From Pseudoxanthomonas sp. YR558 (GTDB lineage: Bacteria > Pseudomonadota > Gammaproteobacteria > Xanthomonadales > Xanthomonadaceae), in the NCBI RefSeq assembly GCF_900116385.1, contig NZ_FPCI01000001.1, forward strand, positions 1,364,001 through 1,428,000: DNA of 64,000 nt, written 5' to 3'. Within the stretch, counting starts at the first letter, position 1. Every line of letters starts with the position of its first letter. The notes under the pieces were generated by a model, which was not told the origin of the DNA, did not search any database, and worked only from the letters and a program-made list of their open reading frames with translations. This document shows positions 2,306 through 37,475 of this stretch, piece after piece. A program made the position numbers and the translations under genes.

Positions 2306-4156
2306 TCAAGCGTCGTCGTACAGCGCGGACCAGGCTTCCTCGGCCTTGGCCAGCTGCTGCTGCAACGCTTCGCGATCACGGCCCAGGCGTGCGGCGAGCT
2401 CCGCGTCCGCATAGCTCTTCGGATCCGCGAGTTGGGCGTCCACCTCGGCCAGCTTGGCTTCCAGCTCGGCGACCTTCGCTTCGGCGGCGGCCAGTTTCAC
2501 CGGATTGACCTTGCGTGCGGGCGCAGGGGCCGGCTTGGGCGCAGGCGCGGGTTCGCTGCGCAGCGGCTTGCTGCCCTGCGCCGAGGCGCGCGTGCGCAAC
2601 CAGGCGGCGTATTCGTCCAGGTCGCCATCGAAGGGCTCGACCACGCCATCGGCCACACGCCAGAACGTATCGCACACCAGGCCGATCAGATGGCGGTCGT
2701 GCGACACCATCACGATGGCACCGTCGAAATCGCTCAGCGCTTCGGCCAGTGCCTCGCGCATTTCCAGGTCGAGGTGGTTGGTGGGTTCGTCGAGCAGCAG
2801 CACGTTCGGCTGCTGCCAGGCGATCAGCGCCAACGCCAGGCGCGCGCGCTCGCCGCCCGAGAATCCGTCCACCGGCTCGAACGCGCGATCGCCGGGGAAA
2901 TTCCACTTACCGAGGAAATCACGGAACGACTGGTTGCTGCCATCGGGCGAGATGTCGCGGAAATGGTCCATCGGTGACTGGCCTTCATGCAGCGACTCCA
3001 CCGTGTGCTGCGCGAAGTAGCCGATGCGCAGATCCGGGTGCGCCATGCGGTCGCCCGCCATCGTCGGCAGCTCACCGACCAGGGTCTTCACCAGCGTGGT
3101 CTTGCCCGCGCCATTGGGACCGAGCAGGCCGATGCGCTGGCCCGCTTCGAGGCCGAAGCCGACATCATGGAGGATGACGGCGTCGCCGCCGTAACCGGCT
3201 TCGACATGGTTGAGGCGGATCAGCGAGAACGGCAGCTTGGCCGGTTCGGCGAACTCGATGCGGAACTCGCGCTCCGCGCGCACCGCCTCGGTGCCGGCCA
3301 GCTTGGCCAGCCGCTTCATGCGGCTCTGCGCCTGTGCGGCCTTCGAGGCCTTGGCCTTGAAGCGGTCGATGAAGCTCTGCAGGTGCGCGCGCTCGGCCTG
3401 TTCCTTCTCGTGCGCGATCTGCTGCTGGCGCAGCTGTTCCGCGCGCTGGCGTTCGAAGTCGGTGTAGCCGCCGGTGTACAGCTTCGCTCCGCCGCCATGC
3501 AGGTGGAGCGTGTGGGTCGCGACGTTGTCGAGGAACTCGCGGTCGTGCGAGATCAGCAGCAGCGTGCCGGGATACTTCAGCAGCCACTGCTCCAACCAGA
3601 GCACTGCGTCCATGTCGAGGTGGTTGGTGGGTTCGTCGAGCAGCAGCAGGTCGCTGGGCATCATCAGCGCGCGCGCCAGGTTCAGGCGCACGCGCCAGCC
3701 GCCGGAGAACGACGACACCGGGCGATGGTGCGTATCGGCCGGGAAGCCCAGGCCATGCAGCAGCTTGCCGGCACGCGCCTCGGCGTCGTACGCGCCGAGT
3801 TCGGCCATCTTCTGGTGCGCGTTGGCGACCGCCTCCCAGTCCTCGCGCGCGGTCGCATCGGCCTCGGCCTGCAGCACCGCCGCGACTTCGGTATCGCCGC
3901 CCAGCACGAACGACAGCGCAGGGTCGGGCAGCGACGGGGTCTCCTGCGCCACGCTGGCGATGCGTACCTTGCCGGGCAGATCGAGGTCGCCCTTGTCGGC
4001 TTCCAGCTCGCCCTGCACGGCGGCGAACAGGCTGGACTTGCCCGCACCATTACGCCCCACCACGCCCACGCGGTAGCCCGCGTGCAGGGTCAGGTCGACG
4101 TTGGACAGCAGCAGGCGCTCACCACGGCGGAGCGCGAAATTACGAAGGGCAATCAA
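2306..4156 (-). CDS. ABC-F family ATPase (YheS type)
   Basis: A 616-residue soluble protein with two ATP-binding cassettes and no membrane segments, which defines the ABC-F family. These proteins bind the ribosome E site and relieve stalled translation rather than transport solutes. Cassette 1 has Walker A GRNGAGKSS, signature SGGWRVRLNLA and Walker B LLLDEPTNHLD. Cassette 2 has GPNGAGKTT, SGGERARLALA and a second LLLDEPTNHLD. A basic linker joins them at about residues 235-300, and a C-terminal coiled coil (about 545-616) follows an alanine/proline-rich stretch. The ISHDREFLD motif and overall layout fit YheS better than Uup. It begins a reverse-strand run with fmdB and is divergent from the TonB receptor gene. 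Confidence 0.9.
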   Translation of the reverse strand: MIALRNFALRRGERLLLSNVDLTLHAGYRVGVVGRNGAGKSSLFAAVQGELEADKGDLDLPGKVRIASVAQETPSLPDPALSFVLGGDTEVAAVLQAEADATAREDWEAVANAHQKMAELGAYDAEARAGKLLHGLGFPADTHHRPVSSFSGGWRVRLNLARALMMPSDLLLLDEPTNHLDMDAVLWLEQWLLKYPGTLLLISHDREFLDNVATHTLHLHGGGAKLYTGGYTDFERQRAEQLRQQQIAHEKEQAERAHLQSFIDRFKAKASKAAQAQSRMKRLAKLAGTEAVRAEREFRIEFAEPAKLPFSLIRLNHVEAGYGGDAVILHDVGFGLEAGQRIGLLGPNGAGKTTLVKTLVGELPTMAGDRMAHPDLRIGYFAQHTVESLHEGQSPMDHFRDISPDGSNQSFRDFLGKWNFPGDRAFEPVDGFSGGERARLALALIAWQQPNVLLLDEPTNHLDLEMREALAEALSDFDGAIVMVSHDRHLIGLVCDTFWRVADGVVEPFDGDLDEYAAWLRTRASAQGSKPLRSEPAPAPKPAPAPARKVNPVKLAAAEAKVAELEAKLAEVDAQLADPKSYADAELAARLGRDREALQQQLAKAEEAWSALYDDA

Positions 4157-4362: not shown

Positions 4363-6762
4363 ATGACCCGCTCGCTGTCGCCCCTTGCTCTCGCCATCAG
4401 CCTGGCCCTGGTGGCCCCCGCCGTCCTGGCGCAGGAATCGGCCCCCACCGACGCCCGCACCCTCGATACCTTGATCGTCACCGGTACTCGCGTGTCCGAT
4501 CGCACGGTCGCCGAATCGCAGTCGCCCATCGACATCATCACGCCCGAGGCCCTGCAGGCCACCGGCACCACCGAGTTGGCCACCGCGCTCGCACGCGCCC
4601 TGCCCTCACTCAACTTCCCTCGGCCCGCCGTCACCGATGGCACCAGCGGCGTGCGCCCGGCGCAGCTGCGCGGCCTGTCGCCGGACCAGGTGCTGATCCT
4701 GGTCAATGGCAAGCGCCGCCATATCTCGGCGCTGGTCAACGTCAACGGCACGATCGGGCGCGGCTCCTCGGCCGTGGACCTCAACGCGATCCCGGTCTCG
4801 GCGATCGAGCGCGTCGAAGTGCTGCGCGACGGCGCCTCGGCACAGTACGGTTCCGACGCCATCGCCGGCGTGGTCAACGTGGTGCTCAAGGGCGCCGGCA
4901 AGGGCGGTTCGCTGGTGGCGGACGTGGGCGGGTATTCCGCGGGCGACGGACGCCAGTATCAGCTCTCCGGCGATACCGGCGTGTCCTTCGGCGAAGGTCG
5001 TGGGTTCGTGCATGTGGCCGGCCAGCTGACGACCCAGGACGAAACCAACCGCGCAGGCCCGTACCAGGGCACTGCGCCGAACACCGGCAACAACCCTGAC
5101 ATCGGCGAAGTGGCCTACGTCTACGGCGACCCCAAGGTCGATGCCGGCGCGGTGTCGGCCAATGCCGGCTTCGAATTCAGCGACAACGTGAGCGCCTACG
5201 CCACGGCGATTGCCAGCAACCGCGACATCACCTCGTTCGCGTTCTACCGCTCGCCCAATCACAGCAGCCAGGGCGCGCTGCTGGCACAGGTCTACCCCAA
5301 CGGCTACGTGCCGGAGATCAACCAGCTTTCGCAGGACCGCTCGCTGGTGGCTGGCGTCAAGGGCGACACCGAGAGCGGCTGGAAGTGGGACGTCAGCTAC
5401 AACTACGGCTACAACCACCTCAAGTTCTACACCCAGAACAGCATCAACTACAGTCTGGGCGCGACCAGTCCGCACCGCTTCTACGATGGCGCGCTGGAGT
5501 ACACCCAGAACGTGCTCAACGCCGACATCAGCAAGCCGCTTGAGATCGGCCTCGCCTACCCCGCCACGCTGTCCTTCGGTGCGGAATACCGCCGCGAGAA
5601 GTGGAACCAGTCCCCGGGTGAAGCGAACTCCTACACCAACGGCGGCGCGCAGGGCTTCGGCGGCTTCACCCCGTCGAACGCGGTGCATTCCGACCGCGAC
5701 AGCTACGCCGCCTACGTCGGCCTGGAAGCTGATCTGACCGAGAAGTTCTCCGCCGGCATCGCCGGCCGCTACGAGGACTACTCGGACTTCGGCAGCGAAG
5801 TGTCGGGCAAGCTGTCGGCGCGCTACGCCTTCAGCGACGCGGTTGCGTTGCGCGCCACCGTGGCCAGCGGCTTCCGCGCACCGGCATTGGCGCAGCAGTA
5901 CTACCAAGTGGTGACCTCGCAGTACAACGCGAGCCTGGACCGCTTCTTCGAGTCGGGCACCTTCCCCGCCACCAGCGCCGTCGCCCAGGCATTGGGCGCG
6001 GACCCGCTGACCGCCGAAACCTCGCTGTCGTACGGCCTGGGCCTGGTGCTGCAGCCGGTGGACCGCCTGTACGTCACCATCGACGCCTACCAGATCGATG
6101 TCGACGACCGCATCGTGCTGTCCTCGAACCTGATCCTCGGCAGCAATGCCGCCGCACAGGCGCTGCTCGCGAGCCTGGGCGTCAACGGCGTCACCAGCGC
6201 GCGCTACTTCACCAATGCGGCCGACACCCGCACGCGCGGCATCGACGTGATCGCGCAGTACACCATCCCGCTGGCCAACAGCAGCCTGAACCTCACCGCC
6301 GGCCACAACTACAACAAGACCGAGATTGAGCGCATCGCGCCGAATCCGCCGGAACTCACCGCCCTCGGCGCGAACCTCTGGCGCATCGGCCGCGACGAAC
6401 AGGGCCGCATCGAGGAAGGCTATCCGCGCAACAAGACCACGCTGACCGCAGCCTGGAACCTGGCGCGCTGGGACTTCAACGTGGGCGCCACGCGCTATGG
6501 CGAGTTCACCAGCCGGATCAGCGAAACCGGCAACTTCGCCAACGACCAGACCTACGGCGCGAAGTGGGTGTTCGATGCCTCGGCGCGCTTCCGCCCGACC
6601 GAGAACTGGGCCTTCACGCTGGGCGCGGACAACCTGTTGGACGAGTACCCCGACCGCACGATCTTCCCGAACGCCAACAGCGGCCAGTTCCCGTACAGCA
6701 GCCAGTCGCCGTTCGGCTTCAACGGGGCCTACGTGTACGGACGCGTCGCCTACACGTGGTGA
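4363..6762 (+). CDS. TonB-dependent outer-membrane receptor
   Basis: A receptor of 799 residues from the chosen ATG. The frame stays open upstream to 4288, but the start at 4363 gives a normal signal peptide (MTRSLSPLALAISLALVAPA, cleaved after VLAQ). The mature protein starts with TLIVTGTR, the usual lead into the plug domain. The plug carries SPIDIITPEAL, QLRGLSPDQVLILVNGKRRH and VEVLRDGASAQYGSDAIAGV. A 22-strand barrel follows and ends in YVYGRVAYTW, a terminal aromatic suited to BAM-mediated assembly. It imports an unknown ligand using TonB energy. It is a paralogue of the receptor at 18328. A third relative survives only as a 3' fragment at 8756. The substrate cannot be inferred from context. 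Confidence 0.9.
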   Translation: MTRSLSPLALAISLALVAPAVLAQESAPTDARTLDTLIVTGTRVSDRTVAESQSPIDIITPEALQATGTTELATALARALPSLNFPRPAVTDGTSGVRPAQLRGLSPDQVLILVNGKRRHISALVNVNGTIGRGSSAVDLNAIPVSAIERVEVLRDGASAQYGSDAIAGVVNVVLKGAGKGGSLVADVGGYSAGDGRQYQLSGDTGVSFGEGRGFVHVAGQLTTQDETNRAGPYQGTAPNTGNNPDIGEVAYVYGDPKVDAGAVSANAGFEFSDNVSAYATAIASNRDITSFAFYRSPNHSSQGALLAQVYPNGYVPEINQLSQDRSLVAGVKGDTESGWKWDVSYNYGYNHLKFYTQNSINYSLGATSPHRFYDGALEYTQNVLNADISKPLEIGLAYPATLSFGAEYRREKWNQSPGEANSYTNGGAQGFGGFTPSNAVHSDRDSYAAYVGLEADLTEKFSAGIAGRYEDYSDFGSEVSGKLSARYAFSDAVALRATVASGFRAPALAQQYYQVVTSQYNASLDRFFESGTFPATSAVAQALGADPLTAETSLSYGLGLVLQPVDRLYVTIDAYQIDVDDRIVLSSNLILGSNAAAQALLASLGVNGVTSARYFTNAADTRTRGIDVIAQYTIPLANSSLNLTAGHNYNKTEIERIAPNPPELTALGANLWRIGRDEQGRIEEGYPRNKTTLTAAWNLARWDFNVGATRYGEFTSRISETGNFANDQTYGAKWVFDASARFRPTENWAFTLGADNLLDEYPDRTIFPNANSGQFPYSSQSPFGFNGAYVYGRVAYTW

Positions 6763-6789
6763 ATCCCAGCCATCGTTCCGCTGCGCAAG

Positions 6790-6816
6790 AACCCCGGCAT
6801 CCGCCGGGGTTTTTCA
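6790..6816 (+). terminator. Rho-independent terminator after the TonB receptor gene
   Basis: A GC-rich stem (ACCCCGGC, loop, GCCGGGGT) is followed by a run of five Ts, 28 bases after the receptor stop codon. Confidence 0.85.
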
Positions 6817-6902
6817 TTTCATCACGACTCCAGCACCGAACCCTCTTTCGCAGCGATCTGCTCCCGCAATTGACTGCGACACTGGCAGTGTCAGATACGT
6901 TT

Positions 6903-7268
6903 TTAGCCGCCGCTCAAACCTTGCGGCGCCATAGCCTTGAGCTTGTGGCCGACCTCGACGATGGCGTCCAAGGCCGGCACTAGTTCTTGGCCGAGCGGCG
7001 TAAGGGCATATTCCACCGAAGGCGGATTCGTGGGCTGGATGGTGCGTGTGATGACACGACGGCTTTCAAGTTCACGGAGCCGTTGCGACAACACCTTGGC
7101 TGAAATCGGAGGGATATCGACGCGCAATTCGTTGAAGCGCCGTGGACCAGCGCGCAGATGCCAGATCACGTTCGGTGCCCAAGCTCCCGCAATGATCGCC
7201 ATGCACTCGGTCAGCGCGCAGGTCTGCGGTGGCGGCGCGCTTCGGTTCTTGCGGACTTTAAGGCTCAT
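6903..7268 (-). CDS. HxlR-family winged-helix transcriptional regulator
   Basis: A 121-residue protein of the HxlR/MarR-like family. It has the usual N-terminal cysteine stretch (CALTEC, residues 17-22), a helix-turn-helix in the middle (RRFNELRVDIPPISAKVLSQ) and a wing with EYALTPLGQEL. HxlR proteins are dimeric repressors or activators that often sense aldehydes, quinones or disulfide stress. It is divergent from a three-gene set (glutathione transferase, NTF2-like, tautomerase). The space between them holds an inverted repeat of GGTTACT type that is its probable operator. Base composition here is visibly less GC-rich than in the flanking genes, consistent with acquisition as a cassette. 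Confidence 0.92.
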   Translation of the reverse strand: MSLKVRKNRSAPPPQTCALTECMAIIAGAWAPNVIWHLRAGPRRFNELRVDIPPISAKVLSQRLRELESRRVITRTIQPTNPPSVEYALTPLGQELVPALDAIVEVGHKLKAMAPQGLSGG

Positions 7269-7276
7269 GAGTGCAC

Positions 7277-7340
7277 TAGGTTACTACGGGGAAACCTAAA
7301 TATTAAGTAACCTATCGAAATCTGGTTTACATGGGTTACT
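7277..7340. promoter_or_regulatory. Probable HxlR operator region
   Basis: Between hxlR and the divergent glutathione transferase gene lies a perfect inverted repeat, TAGGTTACT at 7277-7285 and AGTAACCTA at 7306-7314, separated by 20 bases. A further copy, GGGTTACT, is at 7333-7340. Such GTTAC/GTAAC half-sites are typical of HxlR-type operators. The position fits both autoregulation and control of the divergent operon. Binding itself is inference. Confidence 0.65.
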
Positions 7341-7384
7341 CCGCTCAATAGAGTCTGGCCACTCTCATCACCAAGGAAGCTGCC

Positions 7385-8014
7385 ATGCGGCTCTATTTCA
7401 AACCCGGCGCCTGCTCGCTGTCATCGCGGATAGTACTCACCGAGATCGGGCTGACCTACGACGCCAGCAGGGTTGATACCGAGGCCGGCTTGACCGAGAG
7501 CGGCGCCGACTACCGTGCCGTCAATCCCAAGGGTTATGTGCCGGCTCTCGAACTCGACGATGGTGTCGTCCTTTCCGAGAATCCGGCAATCCTTCAATTT
7601 CTCGCCGACACCCATCCCGAATCGCGTCTCGCACCTGCCTACGGCACTCTGGAGCGCGCGCGTCTACAGGAATGGCTCAACTTCACCTCATCCGAACTGC
7701 ACAAGGCGTTCGGACCTTATTTTCGGGGGCGCCCGCGCGAAAGGCCGGAAAGGGAAGAAGCCGAGCTTCGCCTTTCCCGGCGCGTAGGCGATGTGGAGCG
7801 CGGCCTTGCTGATGGCAGACAGTTCATCGTGGGCGACAGCTTCACGGTGGCGGACGCTTATTTGTTCGTCGTCCTGAACTGGTCGGGCTTCGTTGGGTTC
7901 GATCTAGCTCACTGGCCGCATGTCGCGGCGTATGTGGCTCGCATTGGGATCCGTCCGTCCGTTCGTGATGCCATGCGCCAGGAAGGACTTGTTACGGATG
8001 AGGTCGCGGCATGA
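7385..8014 (+). CDS. Glutathione S-transferase, beta-class type
   Basis: A 209-residue cytosolic protein. The N-terminal thioredoxin-like domain begins MRLYFKPGACSLSSRI, with the cysteine at residue 10 that is catalytic in beta-class enzymes. NPKGYVPAL and SENPAILQFLAD form the glutathione-binding site. The helical C-terminal domain (about 90-200) contains GDSFTVADAYLF. The family conjugates glutathione to electrophiles or reduces mixed disulfides. It is the first gene of an operon with an NTF2-like protein (4-base overlap, ATGA) and a tautomerase, facing an HxlR regulator. Together they suggest inducible detoxification of, or growth on, a reactive compound that cannot be named from sequence. 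Confidence 0.92.
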   Translation: MRLYFKPGACSLSSRIVLTEIGLTYDASRVDTEAGLTESGADYRAVNPKGYVPALELDDGVVLSENPAILQFLADTHPESRLAPAYGTLERARLQEWLNFTSSELHKAFGPYFRGRPRERPEREEAELRLSRRVGDVERGLADGRQFIVGDSFTVADAYLFVVLNWSGFVGFDLAHWPHVAAYVARIGIRPSVRDAMRQEGLVTDEVAA

Positions 8015-8388
8015 CCCAAGCCTTTAACGACATCTGCGACGTCCTTCAGAACTACTTCGACACACTCTATTTCTGCGATGTCGACAAGCTTAAGAGCGTC
8101 TTTCACCCCAAGGCGATCTATGCCACCGCCGACGAGACGCCGCTGCTTTATCGCACCATGGAAGAATATGTGCCGGTCGTCGCGGCCCGCCAGTCGCCGG
8201 CTTCGCGCAACGAGGTGCGGGGCGATCATATCGACGCCATTGATCTTGCGGGCGAGAACACCGCTATCGCCCGTGTGCGCTGTTCGATAGGCAACCGCGA
8301 CTTCGTCGATTTCCTCACCTTGGTACGCACAGAAGGCCAGTGGCGGATTATCGCCAAGGTCTTTCAGATCATCGAACGCCAGCCATAG
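8011..8388 (+). CDS. NTF2-like (SnoaL-fold) protein
   Basis: A 125-residue single-domain protein of the NTF2/SnoaL superfamily, a cone-shaped alpha+beta fold. It can be seen from the start with a long helix (FNDICDVLQNYFDTLYFCDV), the turn FHPKAIYATADE, and the late strands AIARVRCSIGN and DFLTLVRTEGQWRIIAKVFQ. Members are small enzymes (dehydratases, isomerases) or ligand-binding proteins. The start overlaps the stop of the glutathione transferase gene by four bases, so they are translationally coupled. The tautomerase gene follows after 12 bases. The specific reaction is unknown. Confidence 0.85.
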   Translation: MTQAFNDICDVLQNYFDTLYFCDVDKLKSVFHPKAIYATADETPLLYRTMEEYVPVVAARQSPASRNEVRGDHIDAIDLAGENTAIARVRCSIGNRDFVDFLTLVRTEGQWRIIAKVFQIIERQP

Positions 8389-8400
8389 GGAGCGAAAGAC

Positions 8401-8607
8401 ATGCCGTATGTGAGCATCAAGATCACGCGCGAAGGCGTGACGCCAGAACAGAAGGCCGAACTTATTAGGGGAGTGACCGACCTTCTGGTGAGCGTGCTGG
8501 ACAAAAGCCCGGCGACCACCTTCGTCGTCATCAATGAAGTCGATATGGAGGATTGGGGAGTTGGTGGCCTTCCCGTCGTGGAATATCGGAAAACCCTTGG
8601 CAAGTAA
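8401..8607 (+). CDS. 4-oxalocrotonate tautomerase-family protein
   Basis: A 68-residue protein beginning MPYVSIKITREGV. Once the initiator methionine is removed, proline becomes the N-terminal residue, the general base of the 4-oxalocrotonate tautomerase family. The rest (TPEQKAELIRGVTDLL, then FVVINEVDMEDWG) is the beta-alpha-beta unit that forms hexamers. The family interconverts enol and keto acids in degradation of aromatic compounds and related chemistry. It is the last gene of the HxlR-linked operon. About 150 bases downstream the DNA returns to a fragment of a TonB receptor gene. Confidence 0.9.
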   Translation: MPYVSIKITREGVTPEQKAELIRGVTDLLVSVLDKSPATTFVVINEVDMEDWGVGGLPVVEYRKTLGK

Positions 8608-8755
8608 TCGTGAGGCTTCGATGACTTTGCGACTGCTCTCACACAAACGCTTGGCGCGCCTGTTCCGCTTGTCCTGACACCAATGGCCAGTATCGCGGGC
8701 AGCGCTCTGGGTCACCGACGAGTAGCCGGATTCGTTCGCGGCCAGCAAAGCCGCC
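8608..8755. other. Junction DNA between cassette and receptor remnant
   Basis: No convincing gene. This is the right-hand junction of the cassette, between the tautomerase stop codon and the point where similarity to a TonB receptor C-terminus begins. I could not recognise transposase fragments or terminal repeats here. Confidence 0.5.
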
Positions 8756-8839
8756 CATATCTACCTACCCTACCCCACCAGCGCGCCGTTCGGCTTCAAC
8801 GGGGCCTACGTGTACGGCAGGATCGCGTACACCTGGTAA
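8756..8839 (+). pseudogene. 3' remnant of a second TonB-dependent receptor gene
   Basis: An open stretch of 27 codons plus stop, with no start of its own. Its translation ends PFGFNGAYVYGRIAYTW, against PFGFNGAYVYGRVAYTW at the end of the intact receptor at 4363-6762. The preceding residues LPYPTSA align with FPYSSQS. The two copies share 34 identical bases (6707-6740 and 8784-8817). The fragment is followed, like the intact gene, by a terminator. It is best read as what is left of a tandem paralogue after the four-gene cassette arrived or after a deletion. Confidence 0.85.
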
Positions 8840-8861
8840 CCGACTGCGCTGTCCGACACGA

Positions 8862-8892
8862 AACGCCCCGCCACGTGCGGGGCGTTTTCGTT
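8862..8892 (+). terminator. Rho-independent terminator after the receptor remnant
   Basis: The stem AACGCCCCGC, loop CACGT, GCGGGGCGTT is followed by TTCGTT. It now probably ends the cassette transcript, but it was presumably inherited from the lost receptor gene. Confidence 0.8.
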
Positions 8893-8995
8893 ATGGCGGG
8901 CCTCCACCGTCGCGACGACGCATCCGCTCCGGTTTGCGGCATGGCCGCCGCATCGGCGACACTCGACGGATCACGCCGAGGAACCGCGCCATTCG

Positions 8996-10684
8996 ATGCA
9001 CCATGACACCGACCTGATCAACATCATCGCGGTAGGCCTCGCCCTGGCCTTCGTGCTGGGCGCGCTTGCGCACAAACTGCGCTTCTCGCCGCTGGTCGGT
9101 TATCTCATCGCAGGCATCTTCGTCGGGCCGTTCACGCCGGGCTTCGTCGCCGACCAGGAATTGGCCAACCAGTTGTCGGAACTGGGCGTGATGCTGCTGA
9201 TGTTCGGCGTGGGCCTGCACTTCTCGCTGGAGGACCTGCTGGAGGTCAAGGCGATCGCCATTCCCGGCGCCATCGCGCAGATCGTGGTCGCGACCGGGCT
9301 GGGCTGGGCACTGGCGTGGGGCATGGGCTGGACACCCCTCAACGGGTTCGTGTTCGGCCTGGCCCTGTCGGTGGCGAGCACCGTGGTGCTGTTGCGCGCG
9401 ATGGAGGAGCGTCGCTTGCTCGAAACGAAGCGCGGCCGGATCGCGGTGGGCTGGCTGATCGTCGAAGACCTGGTGATGGTGCTGGCGCTGGTCATGCTAC
9501 CGGTGCTGGCCTCCACGTTCGGCCCGGAGAACGGTGGCGAGAAAGCGACCTTCGGTGGCTTCATCGTCGCGATCGCGTGGACGCTCATCAAGCTCGGCGC
9601 GTTCGTCGCCTTCATGCTGCTGGTGGGGCGGCGGGTGATCCCGTGGACGCTGGAGAAGATCGCCGCCACCGGTTCGCGCGAGCTATTCACCCTGTCCGTG
9701 CTGGCGATCGCGCTGGGCGTGGCGTTCGGCTCGGCCACGCTGTTCGGCGTGTCGTTCGCGCTGGGTGCCTTCTTCGCCGGCATGCTGCTCAACGAATCGG
9801 AGCTCAGCCACAAGGCCGCCAACGACTCGCTGCCGCTGCGCGACGCGTTCGCGGTGCTGTTCTTCGTCTCGGTGGGCATGCTCTTCAACCCCGCGATCCT
9901 GCTGGCGCATCCGTGGCAGGTGCTGGCCACGTTCGGGATCATCGTCATCGGCAAGTCGCTGGCGGCGTTCTTCATCGTGCGCGCGTTCAAACATCCGACC
10001 GGCACGGCGTTGACGATCTCGGTTAGCCTGGCGCAGATCGGCGAGTTCTCGTTCATTCTCGCCGCATTGGGCGTGTCGCTGAAGATCCTGCCGCCGGATG
10101 GCCGTGACCTGATCCTCGCCGGCTCGCTGCTGTCGATCATCGCCAACCCGTTCCTGTTCTCGTGGCTGGACCGCTGGCAGAAGAAACAGGAAGCCCTGGC
10201 GCCGCTGCCCGCCGAACCCGAAGCGCCGCCCGGCCCGTCGCTGGACGTCAACGACCACGCCATCATCATCGGCTACGGCCGCGTGGGCAGCGAACTGGCG
10301 CGCGTCCTGCGCGACCGTGGCGTGCCGTTGATCGTCATCGACGACAACGGCGACCATGTCGCGCGTGCGCACGATGCCGGCATTCCCGCGATCCGTGGCA
10401 GCGCCGCCGCCGACCGCGTGCTGGCCGAAGCGCATCCGGAGCGCGCGAAGATCGCCGTGCTGGCGATCCCGCAGCCGCTGGAAGCCGGCGAAGCACTGGC
10501 GAAGCTGCGCGCGATCAATCCCTCACTGACGCTGCTGGCGCGCGCCCACAGCGAGGGCGAAGTGAAGCACTTGCTGGAACACGGTGCCGACGGCGCGGTG
10601 CTCGCCGAACGCGAACTGGCGTTCTCGCTGGCGGAAATGGTCATGTCCACCCCGCCTTACCGCCCGCAGCGCCCCGCGGGCTGA
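8996..10684 (+). CDS. Kef-type monovalent cation:proton antiporter (CPA2, YbaL-like)
   Basis: A 562-residue protein. Residues 1-390 are a hydrophobic Na+/H+-exchanger domain with about 12-13 membrane segments (LVGYLIAGIFVGPFTPGF; GVGLHFSLEDLLEV; SLAQIGEFSFILAALGV). Residues about 415-540 form a cytoplasmic TrkA-N domain with the nucleotide-binding motif HAIIIGYGRVGSELARVL. It exchanges potassium or sodium for protons across the inner membrane and is gated by nucleotide. The TrkA-N domain without a TrkA-C domain resembles YbaL, while KefB/C are longer. An AGGAA sequence about 10 bases upstream supports the ATG. It is a single gene, convergent with the EAL-domain gene. Confidence 0.88.
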   Translation: MHHDTDLINIIAVGLALAFVLGALAHKLRFSPLVGYLIAGIFVGPFTPGFVADQELANQLSELGVMLLMFGVGLHFSLEDLLEVKAIAIPGAIAQIVVATGLGWALAWGMGWTPLNGFVFGLALSVASTVVLLRAMEERRLLETKRGRIAVGWLIVEDLVMVLALVMLPVLASTFGPENGGEKATFGGFIVAIAWTLIKLGAFVAFMLLVGRRVIPWTLEKIAATGSRELFTLSVLAIALGVAFGSATLFGVSFALGAFFAGMLLNESELSHKAANDSLPLRDAFAVLFFVSVGMLFNPAILLAHPWQVLATFGIIVIGKSLAAFFIVRAFKHPTGTALTISVSLAQIGEFSFILAALGVSLKILPPDGRDLILAGSLLSIIANPFLFSWLDRWQKKQEALAPLPAEPEAPPGPSLDVNDHAIIIGYGRVGSELARVLRDRGVPLIVIDDNGDHVARAHDAGIPAIRGSAAADRVLAEAHPERAKIAVLAIPQPLEAGEALAKLRAINPSLTLLARAHSEGEVKHLLEHGADGAVLAERELAFSLAEMVMSTPPYRPQRPAG

Positions 10685-18327: not shown

Positions 18328-20760
18328 ATGCCCCGCCTGACCGTGGCGCCGCTCGGCGCCGCCATCGCGTTCGCGCTCGCCCTTCCCGCCTTTGCCCAAC
18401 AGGCGCCCGCCGATGGCACCACCGACCTCGATGCGGTGATCGTCACCGGCACTCGCGCCAGCGACCGCACGGCGCTGGAATCCACCTCGCCGATCGACGT
18501 GCTCACCGCCGAGGACATCCGCAAGGCCGGCGTGCTCAACGGCGAACTCGGCAGCGCGCTGCAGGCACTGCTGCCTTCGTTCAACTTCCCGCGCCAGTCC
18601 AACTCCGGCGGCGCCGACCATGTGCGCGCCGCGCAGCTGCGCGGCCTCGCACCGGACCAGGTGCTGGTGCTGGTCAACGGCAAGCGCCGCCACACCACCG
18701 CGCTGGTGACGACAGGCTCGAAGATCGGCCGCGGCACCACGCCGGTCGACTTCAACGCGATCCCGGTGAGCGCGATCAAGCGCATCGAAGTGCTGCGCGA
18801 CGGCGCGGGTGCGCAATATGGCTCGGACGCGGTGGCCGGCGTGGTCAACATCATCCTCGACGACGCCCCCGAAGGCGGCGCCTGGGAAGCGAGCTTCGGC
18901 CTGCACCACACCGACGTGGAGCCGATCGGCCAGACGCTCACCGATGGCCAGACCAGCTTCCTCTCGGGCAAGGTCGGCACCGCCGTCGGCGACGGCGGCT
19001 TCTTCCGCGTGGGTTTCGAACTGAAGAACCGCGAGGCCACCAACCGCGCCGGTTTCGACCAGGTGCCGCCGTGGGACCAGACGCCGGCGAACCTCGCCGT
19101 GCAGGGCCAGCGCAACTACCACCTGGGCGACGGCGCTTCGAAGGACCTCAACGCCTGGATCAACACCGGCATTCCGCTGGGCGAGGCGGCGGAGTTCTAC
19201 CTGTTCGGCACCTACAACAAGCGCGACACCGTCGGCGCGAACTACTTCCGCTATCCGGACGGCGTGTCGAACTGGCCGGAGGTCTATCCGAACGGCTACC
19301 GCCCCGTGTCGCTGGGCGAGAACCAGGACGTGGCTGCGGTCGGCGGCGTACGCGGGCAATGGGGCGACTGGACTTACGACGCCAGCCTCAACCGTGGCAG
19401 CAACAGCTTCACCTACCGCCTGCGCGATTCGCTCAATGCGTCGCTCGGCCCGACCAGCCCCACCCGCTTCAAGACCGGCGACTACGAGTCCACGCAGACG
19501 CTGGCGAACCTCGACCTGAGCCGCGGCTTCGATCGCGGCACCGCCAGCCACGACCTCGCGTTCGGTGCGGAATTCCGCCTCGAGGAATACGAAACCGGCG
19601 CCGGCGATCCCGCCAGCTATGCGGCCGGCCCGTACACCGACCGGCCGACGGGTTCGCAGGCCGGCGGTGGCCTGACGCCGCAGGACGTGGCCGACCTCGA
19701 CCGCGATGTCGCCAGCGTCTATGCCGCCCTGTCCAGCCGCTTCGGCGAGAAACTGACCACCGATGTCGCGGTGCGCTACGAGCACTACAGCGATTTCGGC
19801 GGCGAACTGACCGGCAAGCTGGCGGCCCGCTACGAATTCGCGCCGGCATTCGCATTGCGCGGCGCGCTGTCGAACAACTTCCGCGCGCCCTCGCTCGCCC
19901 AGATCGGCTACGAGTCCACCTCCACCGGCTACAACGCGGCCGGGCAGCTGACCCAGGGCCGCCTGCTGTCGGTCAACAATCCGATCGCGCGCGCCCTCGG
20001 CGCGCAGGACCTGGATCCGGAAAAGTCGATCAACGCCAGCCTCGGCTTCACCAGCCGGATCGGCGAGCACTTCGATCTGTCGCTGGACGTGTTCCATATC
20101 GAGATCGACGACCGCGTCGCGCTGTCGGAGAGCATCACCGGCGACGCGCTGACCGACTTCATCGATGCGGAATTCGGCGTGCCCGGCGTGCAGAGCGTCA
20201 GCTACTTCACCAACGCCGCCGATACCCGCACCCAGGGCGTGGAACTGGTGACGAACTGGCGACAGGCCCTGGCCGGCGGCAACCTGCTGCTGACCGGTAC
20301 CTACAGCTACGCGAAGACCGAGCTGAAGAACCTCGTCGCCACGCCCGCACAGTTGCTGGCGCTGGACCCGGATTACGTGTTGTTCGGCGTCGAAGAAAGC
20401 AACACGCTGACCGATGCCGCCCCGCGCACCCGCGCGCAGTTCACCGCGAACTGGGACAGCGAGCGCTGGAACCTGCTGGGCCGCGTGAGTCGTCACGGCA
20501 GCGCCAAGCGCGTGTTCAACTTCGGCGGAGGCTTCGAGCCCGAACAGACCTACGGCGCCGAGTGGCAGCTCGACGCGGAAGTCGAATACAAGGTCTCCTC
20601 GAAGTGGAGCGTGGCGCTCGGCGGCCTCAACCTGACCGATGAGTATCCGGACCTGTCGAACGAAGACATCTACTACTTCGGCAACCTGCCCTACGACGTG
20701 CTGTCGCCCATCGGCAGCAACGGCGCGTACTACTACACCCGGGTGCGCTACACCTTCTGA
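18328..20760 (+). CDS. TonB-dependent outer-membrane receptor (paralogue of the one at 4363)
   Basis: An 810-residue receptor from the ATG at 18328, which has AGGAG 6 bases upstream and gives a signal peptide (MPRLTVAPLGAAIAFALALP, cleaved near AFAQ). The frame is open back to 18100 but that part has no signal-peptide character. The plug begins DAVIVTGTRASDRTALES and contains AQLRGLAPDQVLVLVNGKRRH and IEVLRDGAGAQYGSDAVAGV. The barrel ends ANGTRVRYTF-like at YYYTRVRYTF. It is clearly paralogous to the receptor at 4363 over the whole plug. It stands alone on the forward strand inside a block of reverse-strand genes. The ligand is unknown. Confidence 0.9.
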   Translation: MPRLTVAPLGAAIAFALALPAFAQQAPADGTTDLDAVIVTGTRASDRTALESTSPIDVLTAEDIRKAGVLNGELGSALQALLPSFNFPRQSNSGGADHVRAAQLRGLAPDQVLVLVNGKRRHTTALVTTGSKIGRGTTPVDFNAIPVSAIKRIEVLRDGAGAQYGSDAVAGVVNIILDDAPEGGAWEASFGLHHTDVEPIGQTLTDGQTSFLSGKVGTAVGDGGFFRVGFELKNREATNRAGFDQVPPWDQTPANLAVQGQRNYHLGDGASKDLNAWINTGIPLGEAAEFYLFGTYNKRDTVGANYFRYPDGVSNWPEVYPNGYRPVSLGENQDVAAVGGVRGQWGDWTYDASLNRGSNSFTYRLRDSLNASLGPTSPTRFKTGDYESTQTLANLDLSRGFDRGTASHDLAFGAEFRLEEYETGAGDPASYAAGPYTDRPTGSQAGGGLTPQDVADLDRDVASVYAALSSRFGEKLTTDVAVRYEHYSDFGGELTGKLAARYEFAPAFALRGALSNNFRAPSLAQIGYESTSTGYNAAGQLTQGRLLSVNNPIARALGAQDLDPEKSINASLGFTSRIGEHFDLSLDVFHIEIDDRVALSESITGDALTDFIDAEFGVPGVQSVSYFTNAADTRTQGVELVTNWRQALAGGNLLLTGTYSYAKTELKNLVATPAQLLALDPDYVLFGVEESNTLTDAAPRTRAQFTANWDSERWNLLGRVSRHGSAKRVFNFGGGFEPEQTYGAEWQLDAEVEYKVSSKWSVALGGLNLTDEYPDLSNEDIYYFGNLPYDVLSPIGSNGAYYYTRVRYTF

Positions 20761-37425: not shown

Positions 37426-37475
37426 CCAGGCCTCCCGTCATGTACCGGGCAGCATAGCGGCATAGTGCAGCAACG

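Follow-up and report, generated by a model that had tools for sequence, protein, structure and literature searches.

The accessible part of PMC2789088 describes a TTTTTCAT core for Tn4371-like integrative and conjugative elements (ICEs), gives a primer (TTTCATTTCACCATGACTCCAG) for the integrase-side end of the family and notes members without direct repeats. A further member is flanked by different repeats (GATTTTAAG), according to the accessible part of PMC11448139. Here we analysed a window of 64,000 nucleotides from Pseudoxanthomonas sp. YR558 (NZ_FPCI01000001.1, positions 1,364,001 to 1,428,000; positions given below are those of the window), in which a foreign four-gene operon, the cassette, adjoins the scar of such an element. 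The cassette encodes an HxlR-family regulator and, divergently, a glutathione transferase (GST), an NTF2/SnoaL-like protein and a tautomerase-family protein. It lies between an intact gene for a TonB-dependent receptor (receptor 1) and a gene for a YbaL-family transporter, and is followed by the remnant of a second receptor gene (receptor 2).

The end states of this locus are observed: relatives carry tandem receptors, the window carries the remnant, the foreign cassette and the ICE end, and in one relative (G018) a whole element sits at the same spot. The history that we hold to be the probable one, without great confidence, is that an ICE entered a locus with tandem receptors and then collapsed, leaving the cassette and erasing most of receptor 2.

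The ICE end beside the receptor terminator

Receptor 1 (4363-6762, plus strand; Pfam TonB_dep_Rec_b-barrel and Plug) is followed on the same strand by a terminator-like hairpin read by eye (6787-6817), the T run of which ends in TTTTTCAT; comparable hairpins are present elsewhere in the genus and the family. This octamer, at 6810-6817, corresponds to the ICE target core, and the next 24 bases (6818-6841, plus strand) to the integrase-side end of the Tn4371 family. Altogether, 6810-6841 agrees in 30 of 32 bases with that end in genomes G001 and G018 and in a Cupriavidus plasmid, and the primer TTTCATTTCACCATGACTCCAG, as given in the accessible part of PMC2789088, shares 20 of its 22 bases with the window by visual count. 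All six elements with this end (two in G018, one each in G001, G255, the Cupriavidus plasmid and a Pseudomonas plasmid) have an integrase gene that starts 163-167 bp inside; in G255 and on the two plasmids this gene is matched in two pieces.

That the 32-base match arose by chance, or is a likeness of other cause, is nearly excluded. Such an explanation could point to the shortness of the match, which extends just 24 bases past a T run common in terminators and deviates from the common ICE end at two positions. It is opposed by the controls, since none of 100 Markov sequences of 64 kb, scanned on both strands, exceeded 22 of 32 bases. The exact 16-mer GACTCCAGCACCGAAC occurs in three of 38 genus genomes, namely that of the window, G001 and G018 (twice), and all copies except that of the window belong to ICE ends. 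The end pattern found no match in the 368 other genomes of the class sample.

In G018 an element of about 78 kb begins at the receptor terminator of this same locus, between receptor and YbaL (C1:1331972 to about 1409956). It is bounded by TTTTTTTGT on both sides, and the integrase and transfer genes lie between the core repeats. Its genes include those for an integrase, a TraG-type protein, a LysR protein, a TrbG-type protein and TrbI, and the Pfam families Phage_integrase, TrbI, CagX and T4SS-DNA_transf are represented. The cargo of this element includes copper or heavy-metal genes, and a second element end is located in G018 at C1:806418.

In the window, the interval 6763-8995 contains the four cassette genes and the remnant, without ICE maintenance or transfer genes; a second TTTTTCAT that could mark a far end is absent from 6701-9000, and the genome has no match, at a threshold of E 1e-80, to an integrase related to intTn4371. 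The ICE match ends with base 6841, and 67 bases follow until the match to alphaproteobacterial DNA begins. These bases (6842-6908) lie outside the alphaproteobacterial match, and in the ICE stretches compared nothing matches beyond the ICE end itself. They contain GACACTGGCAGTGTC at 6878-6892, with inverted 7-base arms around one base, possibly an operator from a lost gene.

The scar is new relative to the reading made earlier from the sequence alone (the sequence-only reading); we make no claim that it is unpublished in the literature. Its 32 bases connect the margin of the insert with a mobile-element family known by name, and ordinary annotation would miss such a scar.

The foreign operon and the receptor remnant

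The cassette begins with the HxlR gene (6903-7268, minus strand; Pfam HxlR, 85.2 bits, cut-off 20.8). A divergent control region (7269-7384), with GGTTAC at 7279 and 7334 and GTAACC at 7307, separates it from the GstA-type GST gene (7385-8014; NCBIfam NF007831, 202.1 bits, cut-off 198). The genes for the NTF2/SnoaL-like protein (8011-8388; PF12893, 111.7 bits, cut-off 22.1) and the tautomerase (8401-8607; PF01361, 70.5 bits; TIGR00013, 78.4 bits, cut-off 56.9) follow, all three on the plus strand. ORF reading and profile search thus agree with the sequence-only reading in all genes, strands and coordinates.

This block matches alphaproteobacterial DNA. With gene order and strands kept, DNA identity is 84% between 6909-8617 and plasmid AZO_p4 of Azospirillum lipoferum, 82% between 6907-8602 and Azospirillum sp. 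B510, and 84% between 6920-8597 and Chelatococcus caeni. A scan of genome contigs with the NTF2-like protein gave five loci, all Alphaproteobacteria by title. In the family sample of 394 other genomes, an NTF2 match with an E value of 1e-20 or below occurs in eight; none exceeds 51% identity, and a native operon of the family was therefore rejected. When the 37 other genus genomes were searched with the insert DNA, with up to eight candidates scored in each, matches did not exceed 102 nt and no cassette came up.

Base composition agrees with this origin. The lower GC content noticed in the sequence-only reading is confirmed by computation: the cassette has 58.4% GC, the 1705-bp windows over the 64 kb have a mean of 67.2% (sd 2.25), and the lowest of these fall on the cassette. 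GC at third codon positions is 67-75% in the cassette genes and 87-91% in three flanking genes. The codon adaptation proposed there as a check gave indices of codon similarity of 0.54-0.64 for the cassette genes, below receptor 1 (0.83) and YbaL (0.81), and is a weak discriminator, since the 24 long ORFs of the window span 0.39-0.87 (median 0.71). The gap between the HxlR and GST genes aligns across eight loci, with GGTTAC exact in six and GTAACC exact in five of them (counted by eye), so that the unit seems to travel together with its control region. As judged from these comparisons, the cassette is foreign.

On its right side the cassette is followed by a decayed receptor 3′ end (8678-8839, plus strand). 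Receptor 1 and this fragment share a repeat of 54 nt (6707-6760 and 8784-8837) with 89% identity; the 34 consecutive identical bases reported before are found in it. The 28 codons assigned to the remnant at that time are indeed a decayed receptor end and prove too few: in tblastn, receptor residues 747-799 match 8678-8836 at 47%, and an ungapped alignment of 162 nt (about 8678-8839) pairs the fragment with the terminal part of a second-type receptor in G009. Identity to this receptor is 73% over 8711-8839. Outside the conserved tail, at 8711-8783, 47 of 73 bases agree, and the best of 2000 shuffles of this segment agreed in 32; G009 had been selected before this test for its good fit among the compared loci. 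Since the alignment to a second-type receptor is ungapped and far above the shuffles, the remnant is, by alignment, the decayed end of a second receptor paralogue.

A premature in-frame TAG is located at 8723-8725, and in the frame between it and the start of the conserved tail no ATG, GTG or TTG was read by eye. A working short gene, which for 8756-8839 would have spoken against the sequence-only reading, is ruled out by this lack of a start codon. A search for a plasmid origin of 8600-8790 gave no match; a 43-base match to G002 gave no lead. The terminator proposed for the remnant can be seen by eye as a hairpin on the plus strand (about 8858-8893) that resembles those before YbaL in relatives, and is not in the list of the pattern scan. 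The receptor 1 hairpin is missing from that list too, possibly because the scan takes the T run as part of the stem.

The same locus was examined in 36 of the 37 other genus genomes; G034, in which the sole YbaL match is weak, was omitted, for G024 just the receptor end was fetched, and the stretch of G032 showed neither a receptor nor a close ABC-F gene. Five of the 36 loci contain two adjacent full receptors (G020, G017 and G016, and in reverse order G009 and G011), and the remaining relatives with a receptor have a single one, of either type. G020 is the closest relative both by YbaL (99%) and by the first receptor (97.5% amino acid identity to receptor 1). Strains with two adjacent receptors and no cassette, proposed earlier as the deciding comparison, therefore exist.

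The receptor locus varies between species in copy number, order and insertions. More than 1 kb separates the last receptor from YbaL in seven of 35 receptor-bearing loci (G018, G024, G004, G016, G035, G010 and G002), so that the interval takes up insertions. By eye, it holds genes for a subtilisin-like protease and an esterase-like protein in G010 (L157 3441-4814) and G002 (L057 8392-10161). In G012 (L161, YbaL on the plus strand) receptor tails end at 6035 and 6367, the second being a tail copy of 48 codons 332 bp past the intact receptor; the tail and the next 75 bp look identical between the copies, the whole 332-bp units do not (186/332). G006 (L168 956-4539) has about 3.6 kb between the ABC-F gene and the receptor, unlike the other loci examined.

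A possible history of the locus

The ancestral order would have been ABC-F, receptor 1, receptor 2 and YbaL. A Tn4371-family ICE would have integrated at the TTTTTCAT of the receptor 1 terminator, and the alphaproteobacterial HxlR-GST-NTF2-tautomerase module would have arrived as its cargo, or entered the ICE. A deletion would then have taken the ICE backbone with the integrase and most of receptor 2, and left behind the ICE end, the cassette and the decayed end of receptor 2 before the YbaL-side terminator. We infer both the ICE as carrier of the cassette and the single deletion that removed ICE and receptor together. The sequence-only reading had let one recombination event replace the second receptor. 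The replacement agrees with the two-receptor relatives, the remnant and the foreign cassette; a single event is not shown, and the ICE end at the left edge points to ICE insertion plus deletion.

Several observations do not fit this history easily. A search near the cassette for a far ICE end was negative, with the far end of the G018 element as the sole comparison, and the cassette is absent from the eight ICE-region stretches compared (G018 twice, G001). In Azospirillum the cassette is set among sugar-acid genes, outside any ICE. At three plasmid loci with 88-92% identical integrases the end was not found within 1.5 kb upstream, and G004 has two integrase matches without the 16-mer. Finally, over its last 56 nt the remnant is closer to the first receptor of G020 (96%) than to the second (79%); identity to receptor 1 of the window is 88%.

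The first of these observations also suit an explanation in which scar and cassette are unrelated: the ICE decayed, and the cassette was later recombined from a plasmid or other donor into an already decaying second receptor. The occurrence of the module on large alphaproteobacterial plasmids and the 67 bases between the end of the ICE match and the alphaproteobacterial match would suit it as well. It would have to accommodate that the two foreign pieces lie just 67 bases apart and that the interval of most relatives has neither. We consider this sequence of events possible, yet on the unlikely side.

The best match of the last 56 nt to the first receptor of G020 shows that receptor tails have exchanged sequence, so that the tail alone names no parent gene. 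It also bears on whether the remnant is a mere copy of receptor 1 made at an attachment site. We rejected this in its simple form, because the part before 8784 aligns to the second-type receptor, and kept it in part as a further explanation: a circle of about 2.08 kb with the cassette, the ICE end and a receptor tail would have recombined into a single-receptor ancestor through one crossover within the 34 identical bases, and the fragment would be donor sequence fused to the resident tail. The switch of the remnant at 8784, poorly conserved before and 96% identical to the first G020 receptor after, would follow directly, and many relatives have a single receptor. A special circle is required, however, and nothing else shows one; the closest relative carries two receptors, and an exchange between neighbouring tails also accounts for the switch. 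We regard the circle as improbable.

If the history by ICE entry and collapse is taken further, the receptor-YbaL interval could be a swap site, at which Tn4371-type ICEs repeatedly enter at receptor terminators and their collapse swaps a receptor for metabolic cargo. We put this forward as a rather doubtful generalisation; if true, the 2-kb block would be a stripped ICE residue, with its cargo now fixed as a working chromosomal operon.

Predicted function and comparison with known systems

The gene families suggest an inducible response to electrophiles as the likely candidate role of the cassette. The HxlR protein would bind the GGTTAC/GTAACC repeats and repress the operon until it is modified by an electrophile; the GST would join glutathione to the electrophile, and the NTF2-like protein and the tautomerase may act on the compound or a product. 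The translation of the HxlR gene contains Cys17 and Cys22, one cysteine preceding the matched HTH region, and its scores fall well short of the cut-offs set for the redox models RrpB and RrpA. The GST, which scores above the GstA-type cut-off, contains Cys10 and His106. The PF12893 protein was taken as NTF2/SnoaL-like, PGAP labels its Azospirillum relatives NTF2 family, and it has one weak solved relative (3fka). The nearest solved structure of the tautomerase is 2orm; the protein lies above the 2-hydroxymuconate tautomerase family cut-off and below the listed narrower equivalog cut-offs. One promoter-like site precedes the GST gene (7326-7354), a number that does not stand out from shuffled sequence (1 against a mean of 0.6). 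An anti-phage role was considered and dropped, as the four cassette proteins have no PADLOC match.

The locus is anchored on the left by an ABC-F family ATPase gene (2306-4156, minus strand; profile matches), the position of which is kept in relatives, and on the right by the YbaL-family gene (8996-10684, plus strand; NCBIfam NF007950, 711.8 bits, cut-off 700). Receptor 1 has a further family member in the window, at about 18340-20757, with 42% identity. Three ORFs with a low codon index (at 37438, 49516 and 61246) have no Pfam family and are probably not genes.

In the library searched, no paper joins HxlR, glutathione S-transferase and 4-oxalocrotonate tautomerase. HxlR, YodB and QsrR are among the solved-structure relatives of the regulator, which belongs to the same HxlR family. 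The GST matches its nearest structures, the GstA-type proteins 2dsa, 3uap and 2gdr, over the full length; unlike 2dsa, which is BphK of a biphenyl pathway, it has no linked biphenyl genes. The HxlR-gstA-NTF2-tautomerase modules of Azospirillum, Chelatococcus, Tistrella and Sinorhizobium have the same four genes in the same order and on the same strands, most of the block being 69-84% identical at the DNA level and the control region alignable. Their neighbours differ from those in the window, being sugar-acid genes in Azospirillum and a chromate transporter gene in Sinorhizobium. With the Tn4371-family ICEs the window shares the core and the integrase-side end; it lacks the integrase, the transfer and maintenance genes and the far end, and is at most a residue of such an element. 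The locus thus does not constitute a system of a new kind; a foreign operon has its place at a receptor locus and adjoins an ICE scar, which makes a readable case of a foreign, self-regulated detoxification operon becoming fixed in the chromosome.

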